Assembly: GCF_019900845.1 (NCBI RefSeq)
Contig: NZ_CP074570.1
Span: forward strand, 1,984,001 to 2,048,000
DNA from: Paraneptunicella aestuarii
Lineage (GTDB): Bacteria > Pseudomonadota > Gammaproteobacteria > Enterobacterales > Alteromonadaceae
DNA length: 64,000 nt
Reading direction: 5' to 3'
The position numbers and the translations under genes were made by a program. The notes below the pieces were generated by a model. The model had not been told where the DNA came from, did no database searches, and saw nothing but the letters and a program-made list of their open reading frames with translations. Numbering within the stretch: position 1 is the first letter of the stretch; each line of letters starts with the position of its first letter. Of the stretch, positions 16,159 through 62,543 are shown in pieces.

Positions 16159-16722
16159 ATGAAAGAAATTGAATGGGCAAAACTAGTCGCAGTGAAACTT
16201 GATAACGCACTATCAGGATATAGTGTCGAGGCAGGAAAAAAGCTGTTATATGCAAATGAAATTGTAGAGTATGGAGGCAATTCCCCCTCATACAATGAAA
16301 TGGCTTATGAAACCGATATATTAGTATTTGAGAGCAAGAATGACTCATGGAAACCTAGAGTAGTCATAGAAACAAAGCTTGATAGCGTTACTACCCATGA
16401 CTCAATCACTTATAGCCAGAAGTCTGCAACTCACAAATATGTTCATCCTTACCTAAGATATGGCATCTTTCTAGGCCATAGGGAACATCATCCTCTTCCT
16501 GGTCGACTATTCAGGCATGGTGCTCATTTTGACTTCATGCTGTCATGGAAAAATTACGAGCCAGAAGAGCATGAGTGGAAAACGTTATTAGATATTGTAA
16601 AAAAAGAAATTAAAGCATCACATCAATTAGAAGAAATGATTTTTAACAGCAGAAGCAAGCAAAGAGAGAAATATATTGCGTTACATAAACCTCTTGTTAC
16701 AACGAGTGCCAAAAAGCTCTAA
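16159..16722 (+). CDS. Putative PD-(D/E)XK nuclease-like protein
   Basis: The 187-residue product has a hydrophobic strand ending in ETDILVFE (Asp53) and, after a short loop, VVIETK (Glu71, Lys73), which fits the D...E-x-K core of the PD-(D/E)XK nuclease superfamily. A glutamate/lysine-rich helix follows. ATG 16159 is chosen over the upstream TTG/ATG starts because it begins the charged N-terminal helix. A truncated, frameshifted duplicate of the 3' half lies at 18870-19086. It may be a defence or DNA-repair nuclease on a cassette; this is inference from motif spacing only. Confidence 0.55.
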   Translation: MKEIEWAKLVAVKLDNALSGYSVEAGKKLLYANEIVEYGGNSPSYNEMAYETDILVFESKNDSWKPRVVIETKLDSVTTHDSITYSQKSATHKYVHPYLRYGIFLGHREHHPLPGRLFRHGAHFDFMLSWKNYEPEEHEWKTLLDIVKKEIKASHQLEEMIFNSRSKQREKYIALHKPLVTTSAKKL

Positions 16723-54456: not shown

Positions 54457-54495
54457 TGCCTGATTGTGCTTGGTGAGGTCACTTCAAACAGTTGG

Positions 54496-54603
54496 TTTTT
54501 CACCTTTCCATCGTCATGCTGAATTTATTTCAGCATCTATTTTTTCAACCATCTTGCTAACTGTTTAGAGGTCCCGAAACAAGTTCGGGATGACCTTTGG
54601 TCA
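54496..54603. repeat. REPIN-like insert E1 (type 1) in the distal repeat of array 1
   Basis: Two hairpins, ATGCTGAA/TTCAGCAT and TCCCGAA/TTCGGGA, are bounded by GTCAT and ATGAC, followed by TTTGGTCA. The left part of the host repeat is degenerate. Confidence 0.85.
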
Positions 54604-54754
54604 CTTCAAACAGCTAGTGGTTCCAGACAATGCAGCCTCAGCAGCCAATGCAAATGCAGCGTCTCAACAGCTTCAAACAGCTAGTGGTTCCAGACGCAGA
54701 AAATAGTAAGGGGGCTTTACCAGTAGTAGTAGTCTCAACAGCTTCAAACAGCTA

Positions 54755-54895
54755 TCCCAAAGTCATGCCGCACGAAGATGCGGCATCCAGTTGCACCTTT
54801 AGTCGCAAATATCACCCAAGTTTCAGCATCTCTTTTCCAACCATCTTGCTGACTGTTTAGAGGTCCCGAAACGAGTTCGGGATGACCTTCGGTCA
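54755..54895. repeat. REPIN-like insert E2 (type 2)
   Basis: Left hairpin ATGCCGCA/TGCGGCAT, then a segment joined to the right half of a type 1 element (TCCCGAA/TTCGGGA, ATGAC). It splits the repeat at 54732 and is identical to insert E4. Confidence 0.88.
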
Positions 54896-54980
54896 CTTCA
54901 AACAGCTAGTGGTTCCAGACTCTTCTCTCGCAACAAAACGTGCTCGATTTGCTTAAGTCTCAACAGCTTCAAACAGCTAG

Positions 54981-55088
54981 TTTTTCACCTTTCCGTCGTC
55001 ATGCTGAATTTATTTCAGCATCTCTTTTACCATTCATCTTGCTAACTGTTTGGAGGTTCCGAAACAAGTTCGGGATGACCTGCGGTCA
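54981..55088. repeat. REPIN-like insert E3 (type 1)
   Basis: Same two-hairpin layout as E1; the second stem has a mismatch (TTCCGAA). It splits the repeat at 54957. Confidence 0.88.
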
Positions 55089-55306
55089 CTTCAAACAGCT
55101 AGTGGTTCCAGACCGTATTATGCTAATGGCTGCGGCGGCTATGCCTGTCTCAACAGCTTCAAACAGCTAGTGGTTCCAGACAAAAAAGGCAAAATTACAA
55201 TTAGACTTAAAATAGTCTCAACAGCTTCAAACAGCTAGTGGTTCCAGACAAATTCTTTTTTGTTTTGTGTCTTTCCTTTGACAGTCTCAACAGCTTCAAA
55301 CAGCTA

Positions 55307-55447
55307 TCCCAAAGTCATGCCGCACGAAGATGCGGCATCCAGTTGCACCTTTAGTCGCAAATATCACCCAAGTTTCAGCATCTCTTTTCCAACCATCTTG
55401 CTGACTGTTTAGAGGTCCCGAAACGAGTTCGGGATGACCTTCGGTCA
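55307..55447. repeat. REPIN-like insert E4 (type 2)
   Basis: Identical in sequence to E2 over all 141 bases, including flanks, which suggests copying by recombination. It splits the repeat at 55284. Confidence 0.88.
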
Positions 55448-55821
55448 CTTCAAACAGCTAGTGGTTCCAGACTATAGGAGTAGAATATGAGAAAGTATAC
55501 TGATTGGTCTCAACAGCTTCAAACAGCTAGTGGTTCCAGACCTAAACACGATCTTCCTTTGTTGCGCCAATATCACGGTCTCAACAGCTTCAAACAGCTA
55601 GTGGTTCCAGACAGGATTTAGATAAAAGAGTGGAAGCTCTAAAAGGTCTCAACAGCTTCAAACAGCTAGTGGTTCCAGACTGGCATATCACCCTAAGGAC
55701 GTACCGGATACAGATGTCTCAACAGCTTCAAACAGCTAGTGGTTCCAGACATTTAGTTTTATCAAAAGTAGTTTTACCAGGAGTAAGTCTCAACAGCTTC
55801 AAACAGCTAGTGGTTCCAGAC

Positions 55822-56112
55822 TGCACCTATTTTAGCCTGTGTCATACAAGGGCTGGAGGGGGTATTTTGGCGAACCTCTGAGGAATTGTCCAGAAACCTG
55901 TGGATAAGTGCTGGAATTATTTGGGCGATGGCGTTGCAGCCCTTTATTGGCGTGGGTTGGCGAGTCTCGGCTTGTTTTTGATGAGGGCTTTTTGAACCTT
56001 TTTCTCTATTTTTCAATCAATTACCCTTAATTTATTAATGTTATCCACAGGTAGCGAAATAGGTTCGCCAAACTGAGTTATCCACAATTCAAAAGGTTTT
56101 TTCTGTGAATAA
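55822..56112 (-). promoter_or_regulatory. Leader of CRISPR array 1
   Basis: About 290 bases to the right of the last repeat are nearly identical to the leader of array 2, with complete identity for most of the first 200 bases. An ATTTTA (TAAAAT on the transcribed orientation) lies 8-13 bases from the repeat and may be a -10 element. The leader has a perfect 12-bp inverted repeat, TTTGGCGAACCT (55866) and AGGTTCGCCAAA (56061). It ends just before the stop codon of cas2. Confidence 0.85.
55899..56112. promoter_or_regulatory. Four perfect DnaA boxes in leader 1
   Basis: Boxes: 55899-55907 (TTATCCACA, minus), 56041-56049 (TTATCCACA, plus), 56078-56086 (TTATCCACA, plus) and 56104-56112 (TTATTCACA, minus). 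All match the TTATNCACA consensus exactly; three are of the high-affinity R1/R4 type known from E. coli oriC. Confidence 0.8.
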
Positions 56113-56131
56113 CTGCCTTTATTGTTGGGGT

Positions 56132-56425
56132 TTAGTGTATCAGAATAGCTGCTGGCCAGTAACCTAAAGGTTTGTCGGGAATTGCTTTGGAGGTTTTTCT
56201 ACATTGATGGCATAAACGATAAAATCGTATTTCATCGCCCGGCTCTAACAGCGCTTCCAGTTTTATCTGCATTTTCTGCATATCGCCAAGGCGTTTAAAT
56301 GCCAGTTCAAAAACCGAGTATTGCACTCGGTCTCCGTATTGCATTAATGCCTTTACCACGTTACGACGCACTTTATCGTCAGAGATATCGAAACAGACAA
56401 CATATATGCTTAACGTACCCGCCAT
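56132..56425 (-). CDS. cas2: CRISPR-associated endoribonuclease-fold protein Cas2
   Basis: Cas2 forms the dimeric core of the Cas1-Cas2 integrase. The 97-residue protein has the ferredoxin-like start IYVVCFDISDDKVRRNVVKAL with the conserved aspartate and GDRVQYSVFEL, the usual Cas2 motifs. The start overlaps the end of the fusion gene by 16 bases, so the two are translationally coupled. A CHQC motif near the C-terminus (residues about 72-75) is slightly unusual. Confidence 0.95.
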   Translation of the reverse strand: MAGTLSIYVVCFDISDDKVRRNVVKALMQYGDRVQYSVFELAFKRLGDMQKMQIKLEALLEPGDEIRFYRLCHQCRKTSKAIPDKPLGYWPAAILIH

Positions 56426-59400
56426 GGTGTAAATTCTCCTTGTTGCTGATGGTAATTCACCAAACTGACCGCTTGTTGGTAAAGTGCTTGCGAGGGTGTG
56501 ACGGTGTCTTCCTGCTGATAGGTGGCGGCGGGGCTTTCCATTAATGTCAACAAGTGCCCCAAAAAGATTTTTCGCCCTTCGGAATTAATGTAACAGGCGA
56601 TTTTTCCCGATTCGTTTTCGTTTAGCGTAAAGTGTTCCCGGGTGATCTGGTTGCGCCTTAACAGGGTTAAAACGCTACGTTCTACCAGATGCCTGAAAGG
56701 CTCCATCAGGTCTGAGGCCAGTGCTGCATGGGTTCCCCCCGATTGGTGAAACACGCCTATCCAGGGCAGAAGTCCTGCCACTCTTATGAGTGTGTCGCTG
56801 TAGCCGTACAGTAATGTATAACCGAGGGACAATAAGGCATTGGCCGGGTCGGGGGGCGGCCTGCGTTGCCTGTGGTTAAACTCGCACCACTCGGGCAGTA
56901 GGTCGGTAAACGCATGGAAAAACTGTTGTGTTGCCGCGCCCTCGTAACCACGCAGCATGTTAACATTGGAGGCCATCAATGCGGCTTGAACCAGTGGTGA
57001 CAGCGCTTGGGTGTTGGGGCTGTTGTGGCGGCGTAGTACGTCTTGCATATTGCGAATGCGGCATTCTACCAGTTGCTGGCTTAAGGCTAACTGTTGCTCG
57101 TTACTTAATTGATGTTGTTTCTGCCATAACTGCTGCGAATAGCTTTGTGTTATGGGGGCACTGGTGCAGCCAATATAGCGCCCCATTGTGGTGGCATAAT
57201 GCACGGGAATATGTGCTTGCATTAGCTGGTGTAAACATTGGCTGGTAATTTGATGGTGCCCAAATAGTACAATACAGCGGATGGCGCTGAAGGGTTGGTT
57301 AACCACAACTTCTTCATCCCGAGAGACCGACAGCCTTTGCTGGTGGCAATGAATAGTGCAAGCGTCGCCACTGACACACAGCAAGGTTCCTTGCCTATCT
57401 CTTTCGCCAACCGGTTGAATGGGGGAGTCGTTTAAGGCCGAAGGTGAGGAGTGTTGTTCAAGCAGATAATCTGTGAATTTTACGGTTGTTTCCTGCGCTG
57501 TGCTTTCAATGTTTGAGCTTTCAATGCCTGTGTTCTGAGAGTTTGTGCTCTTAACTCTTGTATTGAGGGGCGGCTCTGGGTGTTCAATCGGGTTGGATAC
57601 ATTCGCCGCCAAGGCTTGGTCGGGTTCGCTGGTGCTTGGTTGTGGGGTTTCATCTGGTGTGGTTGTGCTGTTGTTTAATGCCAATTGTTGCAACGATTCG
57701 GGTAGTGAAGCCAGCCATGAACCGGATGGAATGCCTTGCTTTTGTTTCGAGGCAGGTGCTTTGCTGGGCAGTGCCAGTTCCCCCACAATCAAATAGCCTA
57801 GAAAGTGAAAGCCTTGATCCAGTGATTTAATTGCGGTTTTACGTTTATTCAGTTCCAGGTCGTGTTCAGCCAGTGATTCTGTCGCGAGCGCCAGCGCTTG
57901 TTCAGCTTGTTCTTTGCTTTTGCACATCACAATAAAGTCGTCGGCAAAACGAATAAGCCTGAATCCTTGAGCTTGTAGATCGTTGTCAAAATCGTCCAGT
58001 ATCAAGTTTGCCACTAACGGACTTAATGGGCTGCCTTGAGGGATCCCCATTTTGCGTTCCACGGCATGGCCGTTGAAAACCACCGGAGCGGCTAACCAGT
58101 TAATAATTACCTGAACGAATTCGGCTTCCCCGAATAAGCCGAACAAGCGTTTTTGGATATGGTCGCGATTAACCGAATCAAAAAATCCATCAATGTCCGA
58201 TTCAAAAACCCAGTGGTAGCCTTCCCGTTTGGCTTGTCGAATATCCATTAAGGCGTTTAGGCGCGATTTATTGGGGCGATAACCGTAGCTTTTTTCATAC
58301 ATTAAGGCTTCTATACTGGGCTGAATGGCTTGTTGTATTACCCGTTGTAATACTCGATCCAGAAACGGGGGAACGGCTAAGGGGCGCGGCGCTTTACCAG
58401 GTTTTTGTAATATGCTGCCCTCCAGCATGGGAACGGCGTAGTGATTTTGAGCGATTTGTTCCAGTTGCTGTTTAAGCGAGGTGATATCGGTGTTGCTGCT
58501 GGCCTGGCTTTTTTCCAGCGCTAACTGTAATAACTCGTCACGTTGAATGTGTTTTAACCAGGGGGTAGCCGCGTTGATCGGTGGAGGTATTTGTATTGGC
58601 TGTTGTTGGGCGTCGAATAATGCATAACGACCCAGCCCAAACTGGCGGTTTTGCCCTATGCCCAGAAGTTGGCTGAGCAGGATCACCTGTAACCAGAAGT
58701 CGTCAATGTCTGATATATGTAAGCGGCATTCACCAAACATTCCGCCACACTGTTTGCTGTTCTTGTTATTTTTATAGTCGTTGTTTTTGTAGTCGTTATT
58801 GAGCCAAAACCAGTGGCTTTCACTACTGCTGCCAGTAGGCAATGTTGGCATTTTAGGCCGGGGGGGAGGGGTAAATTCACTCAACAGTGTTGCAATGCCG
58901 GTATACATACGTTCTAGCAAGAGTTCTAGAGTGATGTCTTTTGCATCCCGAGCGAATCGGGCTTCTCCTTTGGCGGTTTCACGGTCTTTAAAGGATTTTA
59001 ATAGCCGGGTTGGGGCGGTCAGGCGCAATAAACAACCCTGAGGCGAAGCCAGTGCTTGTTTGAGTTGCTGGCTTAAGCAAGCGAAGCTAAGGCTGGTCAG
59101 CGCGGTGAAGTCATTTGCGTGGAATACCTCGGTTTGGGTTAAGGCGTCGGTCAGGGTGAGCAATTCCAGGTTGTTATTAAATGCGGCTTTGGCTTCCAGC
59201 GGCTTGGCGCTGACGGGTAAAGCGCGTAACTGGCTTATCAGGAAATTAAAAAATTCCGCTTCAGGGCGCACTAAAATGAGCCGGAATTGATACTCATCCC
59301 CCTTGTTGTACGCCACCCGGCTACATTCAGGCAAATCCAGGAAAAAAGCCGGTGTTTGAGTATGGTTGTTGAGCAAATGCTTTAGCCAGCCATATACCAA

Positions 59401-59490
59401 AGGATGATGAAAGGGTGAGCATTGCACGGCTTGTAGCCACTTTAAACGGATATCCAGTACATAAATGGGAAAGAGTGCATCAAAAGGCAT
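56410..59490 (-). CDS. Cas6-reverse transcriptase-Cas1 fusion protein
   Basis: The 1026-residue protein joins three activities. Residues 1 to about 300 are Cas6-like (RAMP), ending in the glycine-rich loop GIGQNRQFGLGRYAL (277-291). About 340-570 is a group II intron-like RT: motif A SDIDGFFD with Asp432, the GIPQGSPLSPL motif (482-492), and catalytic FADD (515-518). A low-complexity linker (about 575-695) leads to Cas1 (about 700-1026), with Glu850 (GYEG), His915 and Asp927 (DLMEPFR) as the expected metal ligands. By analogy with Marinomonas type III-B systems it should acquire spacers from RNA as well as DNA and process pre-crRNA. All catalytic residues appear intact. Confidence 0.95.
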   Translation of the reverse strand: MPFDALFPIYVLDIRLKWLQAVQCSPFHHPLVYGWLKHLLNNHTQTPAFFLDLPECSRVAYNKGDEYQFRLILVRPEAEFFNFLISQLRALPVSAKPLEAKAAFNNNLELLTLTDALTQTEVFHANDFTALTSLSFACLSQQLKQALASPQGCLLRLTAPTRLLKSFKDRETAKGEARFARDAKDITLELLLERMYTGIATLLSEFTPPPRPKMPTLPTGSSSESHWFWLNNDYKNNDYKNNKNSKQCGGMFGECRLHISDIDDFWLQVILLSQLLGIGQNRQFGLGRYALFDAQQQPIQIPPPINAATPWLKHIQRDELLQLALEKSQASSNTDITSLKQQLEQIAQNHYAVPMLEGSILQKPGKAPRPLAVPPFLDRVLQRVIQQAIQPSIEALMYEKSYGYRPNKSRLNALMDIRQAKREGYHWVFESDIDGFFDSVNRDHIQKRLFGLFGEAEFVQVIINWLAAPVVFNGHAVERKMGIPQGSPLSPLVANLILDDFDNDLQAQGFRLIRFADDFIVMCKSKEQAEQALALATESLAEHDLELNKRKTAIKSLDQGFHFLGYLIVGELALPSKAPASKQKQGIPSGSWLASLPESLQQLALNNSTTTPDETPQPSTSEPDQALAANVSNPIEHPEPPLNTRVKSTNSQNTGIESSNIESTAQETTVKFTDYLLEQHSSPSALNDSPIQPVGERDRQGTLLCVSGDACTIHCHQQRLSVSRDEEVVVNQPFSAIRCIVLFGHHQITSQCLHQLMQAHIPVHYATTMGRYIGCTSAPITQSYSQQLWQKQHQLSNEQQLALSQQLVECRIRNMQDVLRRHNSPNTQALSPLVQAALMASNVNMLRGYEGAATQQFFHAFTDLLPEWCEFNHRQRRPPPDPANALLSLGYTLLYGYSDTLIRVAGLLPWIGVFHQSGGTHAALASDLMEPFRHLVERSVLTLLRRNQITREHFTLNENESGKIACYINSEGRKIFLGHLLTLMESPAATYQQEDTVTPSQALYQQAVSLVNYHQQQGEFTPWRVR

Positions 59491-59634: not shown

Positions 59635-59670
59635 GCGGTTTTTACGGGGGAGTCATTGTAAAAACCGCTG
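59635..59670 (-). terminator. Hairpin at the distal end of array 2
   Basis: An 11-bp perfect inverted repeat, GCGGTTTTTAC and GTAAAAACCGC, lies at the end of array 2 transcription and upstream of the cas operon start. It has no T tract on the minus strand, so it may be a processing or anti-readthrough structure rather than a classical terminator. Confidence 0.5.
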
Positions 59671-59779
59671 GTTTTTCCCCTTTCCGTCGTCATGCTGAAT
59701 TTATTTCAGCATCTCTTTTTTCAACCATCTTGCCAACTGTTTGGAGGTCCCGAAACAAGTTCGGGATGACCTTCGGTCA
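59671..59779. repeat. REPIN-like insert E5 (type 1)
   Basis: Two-hairpin GTCAT...ATGAC element in the degenerate terminal repeat of array 2; the partial repeat to its right received a second element (E6). Confidence 0.82.
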
Positions 59780-59793
59780 CTTCAAACAGCTAG

Positions 59794-59900
59794 TTTTTCA
59801 CCTTTCCGTCGTCATGCTGAATTTATTTCAGCATCTCTTTTTCAACCATCTTGCCAACTGTTTGGAGGTCCCGAAACGAGTTCGGGATGACCTTCGGTCA
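59794..59900. repeat. REPIN-like insert E6 (type 1)
   Basis: Type 1 element separated from E5 only by a 14-base repeat fragment, with no spacer between, so it represents an insertion into the partial repeat left by E5 (or a tandem duplication). Confidence 0.85.
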
Positions 59901-60119
59901 CTTCAAACAGCTAGTGGTTCCAGACTTGTCAAAATGGTGATTTTTTTGAGGTCAGCATGTCTCAACAGCTTCAAACAGCTAGTGGTTCCAGACCTCTAGA
60001 TCATCACGGCACTTTGCCTCATTTAAAGGTCTCAACAGCTTCAAACAGCTAGTGGTTCCAGACGACACTTTTACGTTATTCTTGGATACGAAGATATTCT
60101 CAACAGCTTCAAACAGCTA

Positions 60120-60259
60120 TCCCAAAGTCATGCCGCAGAAGATGCGGCATCCAGTTGCACCTTTAGTCGCAAGTATCACCCAAGTTTCAGCATCTCTTTT
60201 CCAACCATCTTGCTAACTGTTTGGAGGTCCCGAAACGAGTTCGGGATGACCTGCGGTCA
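60120..60259. repeat. REPIN-like insert E7 (type 2)
   Basis: Type 2 element, a close relative of E2/E4 (small indel in the first hairpin loop, CGCAGAAGATGCG). It splits the repeat at 60097. Confidence 0.87.
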
Positions 60260-60341
60260 CTTCAAACAGCTAGTGGTTCCAGACGGTGGAAACCAAGGAA
60301 CAAGAACCACAGCATTTGTCTCAACAGCTTCAAACAGCTAG

Positions 60342-60451
60342 TTTTTCACTCTTTTCCATCGTCATGCTGAATTTATTTCAGCATCTCTTTTTTCAACCAT
60401 CTTGCCAACTGTGTGGAGGTCCCGAAACGAGTTCGGGATGACCTGCGGTCA
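60342..60451. repeat. REPIN-like insert E8 (type 1)
   Basis: Type 1 element splitting the repeat at 60318; TCCCGAA/TTCGGGA and ATGACCTGCGGTCA end as usual. Confidence 0.87.
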
Positions 60452-60612
60452 CTTCAAACAGCTAGTGGTTCCAGACAATTTGGGGAATGTTTTTTGAATA
60501 AAGAACAAAAAGTCTCAACAGCTTCAAACAGCTAGTGGTTCCAGACCTAGAGTGAACTGAAAATGTTCCTTCCAACTTGTTGTCTCAACAGCTTCAAACA
60601 GCTAGTGGTTCC

Positions 60613-60738
60613 GTCATCCCCGCGAAGGCGGGGACCCATAAACACAGGCGTTTGAGAATGTAACAGCCCTCAACTATTTCGCACTATATCAGTGCGGAGT
60701 TAATGGATTCCTGCCTTCGCAGGAATGACTGCGTGATA
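60613..60738. repeat. REPIN-like insert E9 (type 3)
   Basis: A different element family, starting GTCATCCCCGCGAAGGCGGGG and ending with an ATTCCTGC/GCAGGAAT hairpin plus AATGAC. A third hairpin (GCACT/AGTGC) lies in the middle. It has the cleanest junctions: the 21-bp repeat segment 60592-60612 is repeated exactly at 60739-60759. Confidence 0.9.
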
Positions 60739-60826
60739 CTTCAAACAGCTAGTGGTTCCAGACTTAGCTAGCGTGATAGGAAAGGAGGCGTGGTGGTCTC
60801 AACAGCTTCAAACAGCTAGTGGTTCC

Positions 60827-60924
60827 CCTTTCCATCGTCATGCTGAATTTATTTCAGCATCTCTTTCAACCATCTTGCTAACTGTTTAGAGGTCCCGAAA
60901 CAAGTTCGGGATGACCTTTGGTCA
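60827..60924. repeat. REPIN-like insert E10 (type 1)
   Basis: Type 1 element with the same 21-bp flanking duplication as E9 (left copy ends ...GTGGTTCC at 60826, right copy begins CTTCAAACAG at 60925). Confidence 0.88.
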
Positions 60925-61006
60925 CTTCAAACAGCTAGTGGTTCCAGACAGTTGATCGATATTCTGCTGGTTGCCAAGTTATTGTCTCAACAGCTTCAAA
61001 CAGCTA

Positions 61007-61149
61007 TCCCAAAGTCATGCCGCACGAAGATGCGGCATCCAGTTGCACCTTTAGTCGGCAAGTATCACCCAAGTTTCAGCATTTCTTTTTCCAACCATCT
61101 TGCTAACTGTCTAGAGGTCCCGAAACAAGTTCGGGATGACCTTCGGTCA
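61007..61149. repeat. REPIN-like insert E11 (type 2)
   Basis: Type 2 element, first of three in one repeat (61007-61393). Confidence 0.87.
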
Positions 61150-61163
61150 CTTCAAACAGCTAG

Positions 61164-61273
61164 TTTTTCACTCTTTTCCATCGTCATGCTGAATTTATTT
61201 CAGCATCTCTTTTTTCAACCATCTTGCTAACTGGTTAGAGGTCCCGAAACAAGTTCGGGATGACCTTCGGTCA
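61164..61273. repeat. REPIN-like insert E12 (type 1)
   Basis: Type 1 element, separated from E11 and E13 only by partial repeats beginning CTTCAAACAG. Confidence 0.87.
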
Positions 61274-61295
61274 CTTCAAACAGCTAGTGGTTTCC

Positions 61296-61393
61296 CTTTT
61301 CCATCGTCATGCTGAATTTATTTCAGCATCTCTTTCAACCATCTTGCTAACTGTTTGGAGGTCCCGAAACGAGTTCGGGATGACCTTCGGTCA
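61296..61393. repeat. REPIN-like insert E13 (type 1)
   Basis: Type 1 element, third in the tandem series; its left partial repeat has one extra T (GTGGTTTCC). Confidence 0.87.
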
Positions 61394-61764
61394 CTTCAAA
61401 CAGCTAGTGGTTCCAGACTCAGTTGGTCAAACAAATGAATGACAAGCTTTCAGTCTCAACAGCTTCAAACAGCTAGTGGTTCCAGACGAAGCGAAATACA
61501 AGTCGTGGAGGGGCATATCTGTCTCAACAGCTTCAAACAGCTAGTGGTTCCAGACTAGAATCGATGAGGTTGCCAGCTTGGCTGGTTTATGTCTCAACAG
61601 CTTCAAACAGCTAGTGGTTCCAGACAAGAGTGAGCAGTCGATTTCCTTAGCTACAAAAATGTCTCAACAGCTTCAAACAGCTAGTGGTTCCAGACGACTT
61701 ATAATTCAAATTCAAAAGCAGGGCCTTAAGTCTCAACAGCTTCAAACAGCTAGTGGTTCCAGAC

Positions 61765-62055
61765 TGCACCTATTTTAGCCTGTGTCATACAAGGGCTGGA
61801 GGGGGTATTTTGGCGAACCTCTGAGGAATTGTCCAGAAACCTGTGGATAAGTGCTGGAATTATTTGGGCGATGGCGTTGCAGCCCTTTATTGGCGTGGGT
61901 TGGCGAGTCTCGGCTTGTTTTTGGTGAGGGCTTTTTGAACCTTTTTCTCTATTTTTCAATTGATTACCCTCAATTTATTAATGTTATCCACAGTTGATGA
62001 AACAGGTTCGCCAAATTGAGTTATCCACAATTAAAGACGCTTTTTCTGTGAATAA
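61765..62055 (-). promoter_or_regulatory. Leader of CRISPR array 2
   Basis: It duplicates the leader of array 1, including the same 12-bp inverted repeat (TTTGGCGAACCT and AGGTTCGCCAAA) and the -10-like TAAAAT near the first repeat. The two leaders differ mainly after the second DnaA box and diverge completely beyond 62056. Confidence 0.85.
61842..62055. promoter_or_regulatory. Four perfect DnaA boxes in leader 2
   Basis: Boxes: 61842-61850 (TTATCCACA, minus), 61984-61992 (plus), 62021-62029 (plus) and 62047-62055 (TTATTCACA, minus). Offsets from the first leader base are 77, 219, 256 and 282, identical to leader 1. Confidence 0.8.
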
Positions 62056-62543
62056 CCTGGTTTTTAACCTCTCAACCTATAAAACTTGTTGTCCGAGCTA
62101 GCCGCGAAACAGCTTGGTTGGTGCGATTATAACGTAATATAGCTACACATTCATTGCTTAATATCAGCTGGTTGGAGAGGGGAAGTCGATACCTTAGCGT
62201 TCTCAGGCGTGAGACAGGCGATGACTAAAAGCCAATCTGTTTACTTTAATTTTATGGGGTTGTATGGTTATAATCCGGTGCTTCTTTGGGGGCTTTGTTG
62301 TTGTGCGTTATTTTTAAAGAAGGTTGATAAAATGCGCCTTGCTAGTGTGGGGCGCCTGTTGTAAACAATCTATTTTTTTGTTTTTTCTATTGTCTGTTTT
62401 TTCTATTGAGAAGCGCGCTACGATCACAAAACACTGAAGAAGGCAAGGGGGATAAGGAGTATGTGGTTTATCCGTTAATGATGTTGCCATTCCTGTTCGA
62501 GCAAATGTTCGTGTTATGGTTTTAGTCAGGGATTATACAAATA
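62056..62543. other. Intergenic region between leader 2 and the membrane-protein gene
   Basis: No well-supported gene. A 47-codon frame (62221-62364, ATG, weak ribosome-binding site) and two very short frames just before the next gene (62461-62478 after AAGGAG; 62478-62525, overlapping it by ATG/TAA) are possible leader peptides. The T-rich stretch at 62370-62410 probably includes the promoter. Confidence 0.4.

Follow-up and report, generated by a model that had tools for sequence, protein, structure and literature searches.

DnaA is the protein that starts chromosome copying, and in type I-E CRISPR systems IHF bends the leader. As a DNA-bending protein of the host chromosome with sites in the leader, IHF offers a parallel to what is proposed here for DnaA, although it is a different protein and the boxes described below lie much farther from the repeat. 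DnaA boxes also cluster away from oriC, at DARS1, DARS2 and datA of E. coli. Among CRISPR loci of the RT-Cas1 kind, the literature describes that of Marinomonas mediterranea MMB-1, and in Alteromonas gilva and on the Vibrio aerogenes plasmid pLMG19650 the array and leader adjoin cas2 and a gene of the Cas6-RT-Cas1 type, as in the locus studied here. Passages of two papers report that in E. coli dnaA46 Cas1 foci are seen when replication can start, and that after a shift that stops initiation there are none or the bright foci are lost (PMC10359635, PMC13244154). A leader with built-in DnaA boxes would be a direct and easily mutated candidate link between replication and memory formation and, if true, would make DnaA a direct cell-cycle regulator of adaptive immunity. 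In the open-access literature (most subscription papers lie outside this coverage) none of the papers we found connects DnaA boxes to a CRISPR leader.

Here, we have analysed a stretch of 64,000 nucleotides of the Paraneptunicella aestuarii chromosome (NZ_CP074570.1, positions 1,984,001 to 2,048,000; the window), which holds a type III-B system of the RT-Cas1 kind. Its CRISPR features, in window positions, are as follows.

54604 to 55821, minus strand: CRISPR array 1 (called by script; repeat of 35 bp, with no more than 3 substitutions in 8 copies and inserts that split the others)
55822 to 56131, minus strand: CRISPR leader 1 (310 bp; by sequence, the stretch that separates the 3' end of cas2 from the first array 1 repeat)
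56132 to 56425, minus strand: cas2 (TIGR01573, above its cut-off)
56410 to 59490, minus strand: Cas6-RT-Cas1 fusion, 1026 aa (Cas1 profile TIGR00287, above its cut-off, at residues 711-1021)
59780 to 61764, minus strand: CRISPR array 2 (called by script; 8 repeats have up to 3 substitutions and the others are interrupted)
61765 to 62056, minus strand: CRISPR leader 2, a copy of leader 1 (by alignment)

Read along the minus strand, the order is leader 2, array 2, cas6-RT-cas1, cas2, leader 1 and array 1, and transcription into array 1 runs on that strand. The fusion protein matches an RT/maturase profile at residues 337-569, below its cut-off, and its N-terminus would be Cas6, as suggested by relatives with PF10040. 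To the right, in the plus direction, a profile search identified cmr1, cas10/cmr2, cmr3 (below the curated cut-off) and cmr6; a 582-aa ORF lies ahead of cmr1 and two ORFs separate cmr3 from cmr6. Leader 2 is homologous to positions 1-292 of leader 1, and the two are 95% identical over 292 of the 310 bp and 97% identical over a 300-bp pair.

Leader 1 contains four exact copies of TTATNCACA, which are putative DnaA boxes and are called D, A, B and C in order of position. The same four are found in leader 2.

55899 to 55907, minus strand: DnaA box D of leader 1, TTATCCACA, exact match
56041 to 56049, plus strand: DnaA box A of leader 1, TTATCCACA, exact match
56078 to 56086, plus strand: DnaA box B of leader 1, TTATCCACA, exact match
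56104 to 56112, minus strand: DnaA box C of leader 1, TTATTCACA, exact match; the good alignment of the leaders ends just beyond it
61842 to 61850, minus strand: DnaA box D of leader 2, exact match
61984 to 61992, plus strand: DnaA box A of leader 2, exact match
62021 to 62029, plus strand: DnaA box B of leader 2, exact match
62047 to 62055, minus strand: DnaA box C of leader 2, exact match

The preliminary description had reported four perfect boxes in leader 1, three of them within 72 bp, and had put the number expected by base composition below 0.01. The positions were reproduced exactly and the expectation was about right, since shuffling gives ∼0.01 per leader. The finding is correct and larger than first noted, in that leader 2 carries an identical set at an offset of 5943. 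When the 310-bp leader was shuffled 20,000 times with its dinucleotides preserved, 19,818 shuffles had no box, 181 had one, one had two and none had more, so consensus boxes in this intergenic promoter region exceed chance. Because a scan that allowed one mismatch added no further box within the leader, there are four perfect sites and nothing intermediate. Past box C, a 1-base insertion is followed by poor alignment between the two leaders. Since the leaders are copies of 95-97% identity, the boxes in both represent one event that was duplicated rather than two independent ones.

The pattern of substitutions between the two copies is consistent with selection on the boxes. Over positions 55822-56112 there are 14 substitutions, all outside the 36 box bases, although this alone does not reach significance (p 0.15). 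The distal 72 bp (56041-56112) hold ten of them, and these leave intact the 27 box bases as well as the 12 bases of AGGTTCGCCAAA, an inverted copy of a leader motif described below. The hypergeometric p value for this sparing is 1.7e-4 for boxes and AGGTTCGCCAAA together and 0.006 for boxes alone; as the zone was chosen after viewing the alignment, these values serve as a guide only. The host DnaA has the canonical box-reading domain: its domain IV aligns over 77 residues with PDB chain 1j1v_A at E 6.5e-42, with 69 of the 77 identical. We take this chain to be domain IV of E. coli DnaA, whose structure was solved with a DnaA box.

To place the leaders in the context of the 4.91-Mb chromosome, we counted 139 TTATYCACA sites, 54 of them TTATCCACA and 85 TTATTCACA (against 30 and 65, respectively, for the reversed control words); the count leaves out TTATACACA and TTATGCACA, which account for 78 further sites. 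Six of the 54 TTATCCACA lie in the two leaders. At least three TTATYCACA within 300 bp occur in only four places: the two leaders, the promoter of polA and a gap next to mnmG that resembles oriC. The oriC-like cluster (chromosome positions 4,900,852-4,900,959) lies in a GATC-rich gap beside mnmG, with two more ORFs and then mioC beyond, and we presume these mnmG/mioC surroundings of the gap at 4.9009 Mb to be the usual oriC neighbourhood. The leaders themselves do not have the oriC combination of an mnmG neighbourhood, GATC sites and a DnaA cluster, and GATC is absent from both. Elsewhere, boxes pair up upstream of dnaA, in an intergenic stretch at 1,969.6 kb and within two coding sequences. 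The intergenic pair at 1.9696 Mb (L065 1003-1100) consists of two TTATCCACA with two 1-mismatch boxes between them, and is possibly a DARS- or datA-like site. The two coding pairs were taken as incidental. One, at 439.6 kb, is within a coding sequence that is presumably hisF. The other, near the type I-C cas1 (L043 10614-10640), is an 18-bp tandem coding repeat (SVDKEVSVDKE) with two perfect DnaA boxes, at the end of the gene before cas1, which we read by eye as cas4.

Could an AT-rich leader have given DnaA-like words by chance, with the duplication then doubling them? Being copies, the leaders do provide only four independent sites. Against this, none of the 20,000 shuffles reached three boxes, and when 135 sites (the genome's 139 TTATYCACA minus one leader copy) were placed at random in 20,000 simulations, three fell within 205 bp in 46 of them and four in none. 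Moreover, the leaders hold no near-miss boxes of the kind that drift would leave. We therefore regard chance as highly improbable.

The polA promoter shows how the same word behaves where DnaA is a likely regulator. Its cluster lies upstream of polA at chromosome positions 16,364-16,515 (L044 6365-6516) and comprises four boxes in one orientation, spaced by 55, 44 and 44 bp. Since these boxes stand so far apart, spaced single boxes are not foreign to the likely DnaA targets of this genome. As a positive control, we took a single polA promoter from each of 30 genomes, our own among them, out of 39 in which a match had been found. The word TTATNCACA was found within 500 bp upstream of polA in 25 of the 30 promoters, that is, in 24 of the 29 relatives, and in none of the 30 within 500 bp downstream. 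From these counts we conclude that, within the clade, the word has the conservation expected of a DnaA site. The polA promoters of this genome and its relatives resemble the leaders in having several perfect, well-separated boxes in one intergenic stretch, a rare arrangement genome-wide. They differ in that the four polA boxes of our genome are co-oriented and the word is kept in most relatives, whereas the leader boxes are of mixed orientation and are found in none of the relatives examined.

Taken together, the rarity of the boxes, their duplication, their sparing by substitutions, the matching host DnaA and the conservation at polA suggest that the leader boxes are probably real DnaA sites under selection. 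The feature is real and rare, and it is probably functional; the leaders would then represent a DnaA-box form of a known type of CRISPR leader. We give about an even chance to the reading that DnaA truly binds the chromosome at both leaders of this type III-B RT-Cas1 locus and that they most probably serve as promoters under its control. That DnaA binds here, which way it regulates and that it links the arrays to replication are what we infer from the sequence.

How DnaA may act on the arrays is suggested by the surroundings of box D. The only sigma-70-like call in the leader is listed below and points into array 1.

55864 to 55892, minus strand: sigma-70-like promoter TGGACA-17-CAAAAT into array 1 (weak; a single hit, where chance would give 0.7)

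Box D lies 6 bp upstream of the predicted -35 TGGACA, and 3 bp further along the minus strand is a second box, TTCTGGACA, which matches at 7 of 9 positions and overlaps the predicted -35. For boxes A, B and C the best partner at 2-3 bp matches at no more than 4 of 9. As ∼2.5% of random boxes have a partner of at least 7/9 (495 of 20,000 draws), such a partner for one box in four is weak evidence. In E. coli, according to passages of PMC11317965, DnaA has a preference for boxes separated by 2-3 bp, can activate or repress promoters and can act as a roadblock to RNA polymerase, with polA and nrdA described as positive targets. The same source counts against our reading in stating that only 13 of 32 consensus boxes in E. 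coli are in DnaA-bound regions (PMC11317965). We favour control of array transcription, in a manner similar to polA, because of the arrangement of box D and the predicted -35, together with what those passages of PMC11317965 say of DnaA at promoters.

We propose that DnaA would occupy box D together with its weak neighbour at 3 bp, which overlaps the -35 call, while DnaA at the A-B-C cluster, ∼140 bp upstream, could contact or loop onto the array promoter. The activity of this promoter would then shift with the DnaA-ATP level of the cell. A further possible effect of the A-B-C cluster is to stop transcription that runs on from cas2 before it enters array 1. In this way, replication initiation or replication stress would set how the arrays are transcribed and perhaps how open the leader is to spacer integration, so that the four perfect boxes in the control region of each memory bank may tie immune memory to the cell cycle. 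That DnaA times array transcription and spacer uptake to initiation or replication stress, together with its hold on polA, is a more tentative proposal, which we consider possible but doubtful. An intrinsic terminator formed by the inverted boxes B and C was considered and rejected: the two could form a stem of 11 pairs, yet a T-run and a terminator call are both missing and folding is only modest (DNA z -1.59 and -2.38).

The preliminary description had also suggested that the leaders could act like datA or DARS loci. Under this reading, the leaders would titrate DnaA or exchange its nucleotide in the service of replication control and not of CRISPR. It draws on the eight consensus boxes within ∼6 kb, on the three TTATCCACA per leader, where the oriC-like gap has two and polA one, and on one 1-mismatch IHF-like site per leader between boxes D and A, although such a site is at chance level (at least one in 778 of 2000 shuffles). 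The likeness to the E. coli loci does not extend to spacing, orientation or the IHF site. The cores of DARS1 and DARS2 are arranged +/-/- at 14 and 12 bp, whereas the leader trio is +/+/- at 37 and 26 bp; the essential datA boxes, in passages of PMC5742627, are co-directional, whereas boxes D (minus) and A (plus) are opposed. Counted from the oriC-like gap, the leaders also lie at ∼83% of the distance to its antipode, and relocating datA near terC in E. coli, as PMC4585315 reports, led to asynchronous initiation. Finally, the boxes track the leader copies exactly. The suggestion thus found no match in DARS core spacing and orientation or in the box direction and IHF site of datA, and we consider it unlikely; DnaA-regulated array promoters remain our preferred reading.

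Besides the boxes, the leaders carry a repeated motif, whose two copies in leader 1 are as follows.

55866 to 55877, plus strand: leader motif copy 1, TTTGGCGAACCT, with its core GGCGAACCT from leader position 48
56061 to 56072, minus strand: leader motif copy 2, inverted (AGGTTCGCCAAA on the plus strand), between boxes A and B and spared by substitutions

Both of our leaders have TTTGGCGAACCT and the inverted copy AGGTTCGCCAAA. As in ours, the leaders of A. gilva and V. aerogenes have a GGCxAACCT-type motif at position 48 and further distal copies: the A. gilva leader has three GGCAAACCT, and each V. aerogenes leader has two GGCCGATCT and two near copies. Across five leaders (our leaders 1 and 2, A. 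gilva and two from V. aerogenes; two slices were corrected for 1 and 11 repeat bases), the first copy of GGC(G/A/C)(A/G)A(C/T)CT is at leader position 48, in three species whose leaders are otherwise very different (L040 7754-7762 and L047 15568-15576 in the relatives). The inverted distal copy is at 240 in ours and at 238 in A. gilva, and the last copy in V. aerogenes is at 218 and not inverted. In shuffle controls, a 9-mer occurred three times on either strand in 36 (our leader), 26 (A. gilva) and 9 (V. aerogenes) of 2000 shuffles, and some 12-mer occurred twice in 77 of 2000 shuffles of our leader. As the controls also give repeats, repetition of the motif is modest evidence and its shared position is stronger. 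The motif is possibly an anchor for the integrase or a regulator site. Adjoining both an array and cas2/RT-Cas1, and with the motif at position 48, leader 1 has the make-up of an RT-Cas1 leader.

Boxes D and A each stand next to one motif copy, with box and motif in matching order, and the gaps of 21 and 11 bp that separate them are about one helical turn apart. This arrangement, the shared position of the motif core in all five leaders and the lack of an exact IHF consensus in our leader would fit DnaA as an architectural factor for spacer integration that bends the leader like IHF, with the position-48 motif anchoring the Cas1 complex. However, the relatives retain the motif and are without boxes, and the passages on RT-Cas1 integration in vitro in PMC11014452 and PMC8102632 name no host factor. 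In those passages, M. mediterranea RT-Cas1 is assayed on DNA that includes 40 or 20 bp of leader; for the Thiomicrospira complex the length is 49 or 163 bp (PMC11014452, PMC8102632). As these leaders are short and our boxes start at leader position 78, with the rest mostly past 219, the integration chemistry is unlikely to require such boxes in general. We consider an architectural role improbable and return to promoter control, in which the boxes would have been added in this lineage around the older leader motif.

The motif is common to the leaders of three species and the boxes are found only in our own. Enrichment of boxes in related RT-CRISPR leaders, which the preliminary description had set as its own refutation test, was not observed: an exact box lies near none of 13 other arrays. 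Nine of these were scanned within 600 bp, and for only some of them is the leader side known. They comprise one array from A. gilva, two from V. aerogenes, one each from G979 and G1064, two from G800, one from G184 and one from a Cas6-RT-like locus of our own genome; the flank is incomplete on one side in G979, G1064, the second G800 array and G184, and only some have a full RT-Cas1. The remaining four are in viral contigs, whose loci have no exact box anywhere. Outside the 13, our own type I-C array also has no box within 600 bp. One-mismatch boxes number one in each V. aerogenes leader and none in A. gilva. The A. gilva and V. aerogenes arrays therefore contrast with our leaders, which have four exact boxes each. 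As none of the 13 arrays has a box nearby, there is no cross-species conservation of the boxes and, as far as seen among the arrays examined, DnaA boxes in leaders are confined to this lineage.

Close relatives of the locus are few. Full-length Cas6-RT-Cas1 proteins are found in 2 of 395 family genomes (our own and A. gilva, G395), and two others match the RT part only. RT-Cas1 is present in 1 of 59 genomes in the genus of G395 (G395 itself), among 394 genomes of the order in our own only, and in 6 of 368 other genomes in a draw from the class. The A. gilva protein, the nearest with DNA, is 46-49% identical to ours, and the closest protein (P0002, on a metagenome contig) is 65-68% identical. 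The leader matches 20 of 389 other family genomes, over 21-57 bp only. In viral contigs, five stretches have the composite pattern of box and motif, and an array was detected in none of them.

That a related RT-Cas1 locus is on a plasmid, pLMG19650 of V. aerogenes, and that an AT-rich stretch (56002-56061, 70-77% AT) adjoins and overlaps box A would suit boxes that are functionless relics of a plasmid or phage origin acquired along with the CRISPR locus. Yet the pLMG19650 leaders are without exact boxes, the leader has no match among plasmid records, and no replication gene was recognised by eye in the ORFs beside the arrays. Substitutions between the copies also avoid the boxes in the diverged part. 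A fossil origin is thus very unlikely in our view.

The same genome has a second RT-CRISPR locus at ∼3.01 Mb (L042), with a Cas6-RT-like protein and its own array. The start of its leader resembles the others (AGCGGGCTTCTGGATGCC...), without a repeated motif of this kind and without boxes.

Both arrays of the window also hold a repeated insert, with ∼105-140 bp between the repeat halves (54480-55470 and 59656-61412). The insert splits repeats, duplicates CTTCAAACAGCTA of the repeat and is present in 12 copies at no less than 60% identity; it resembles a small mobile element that targets CRISPR repeats.
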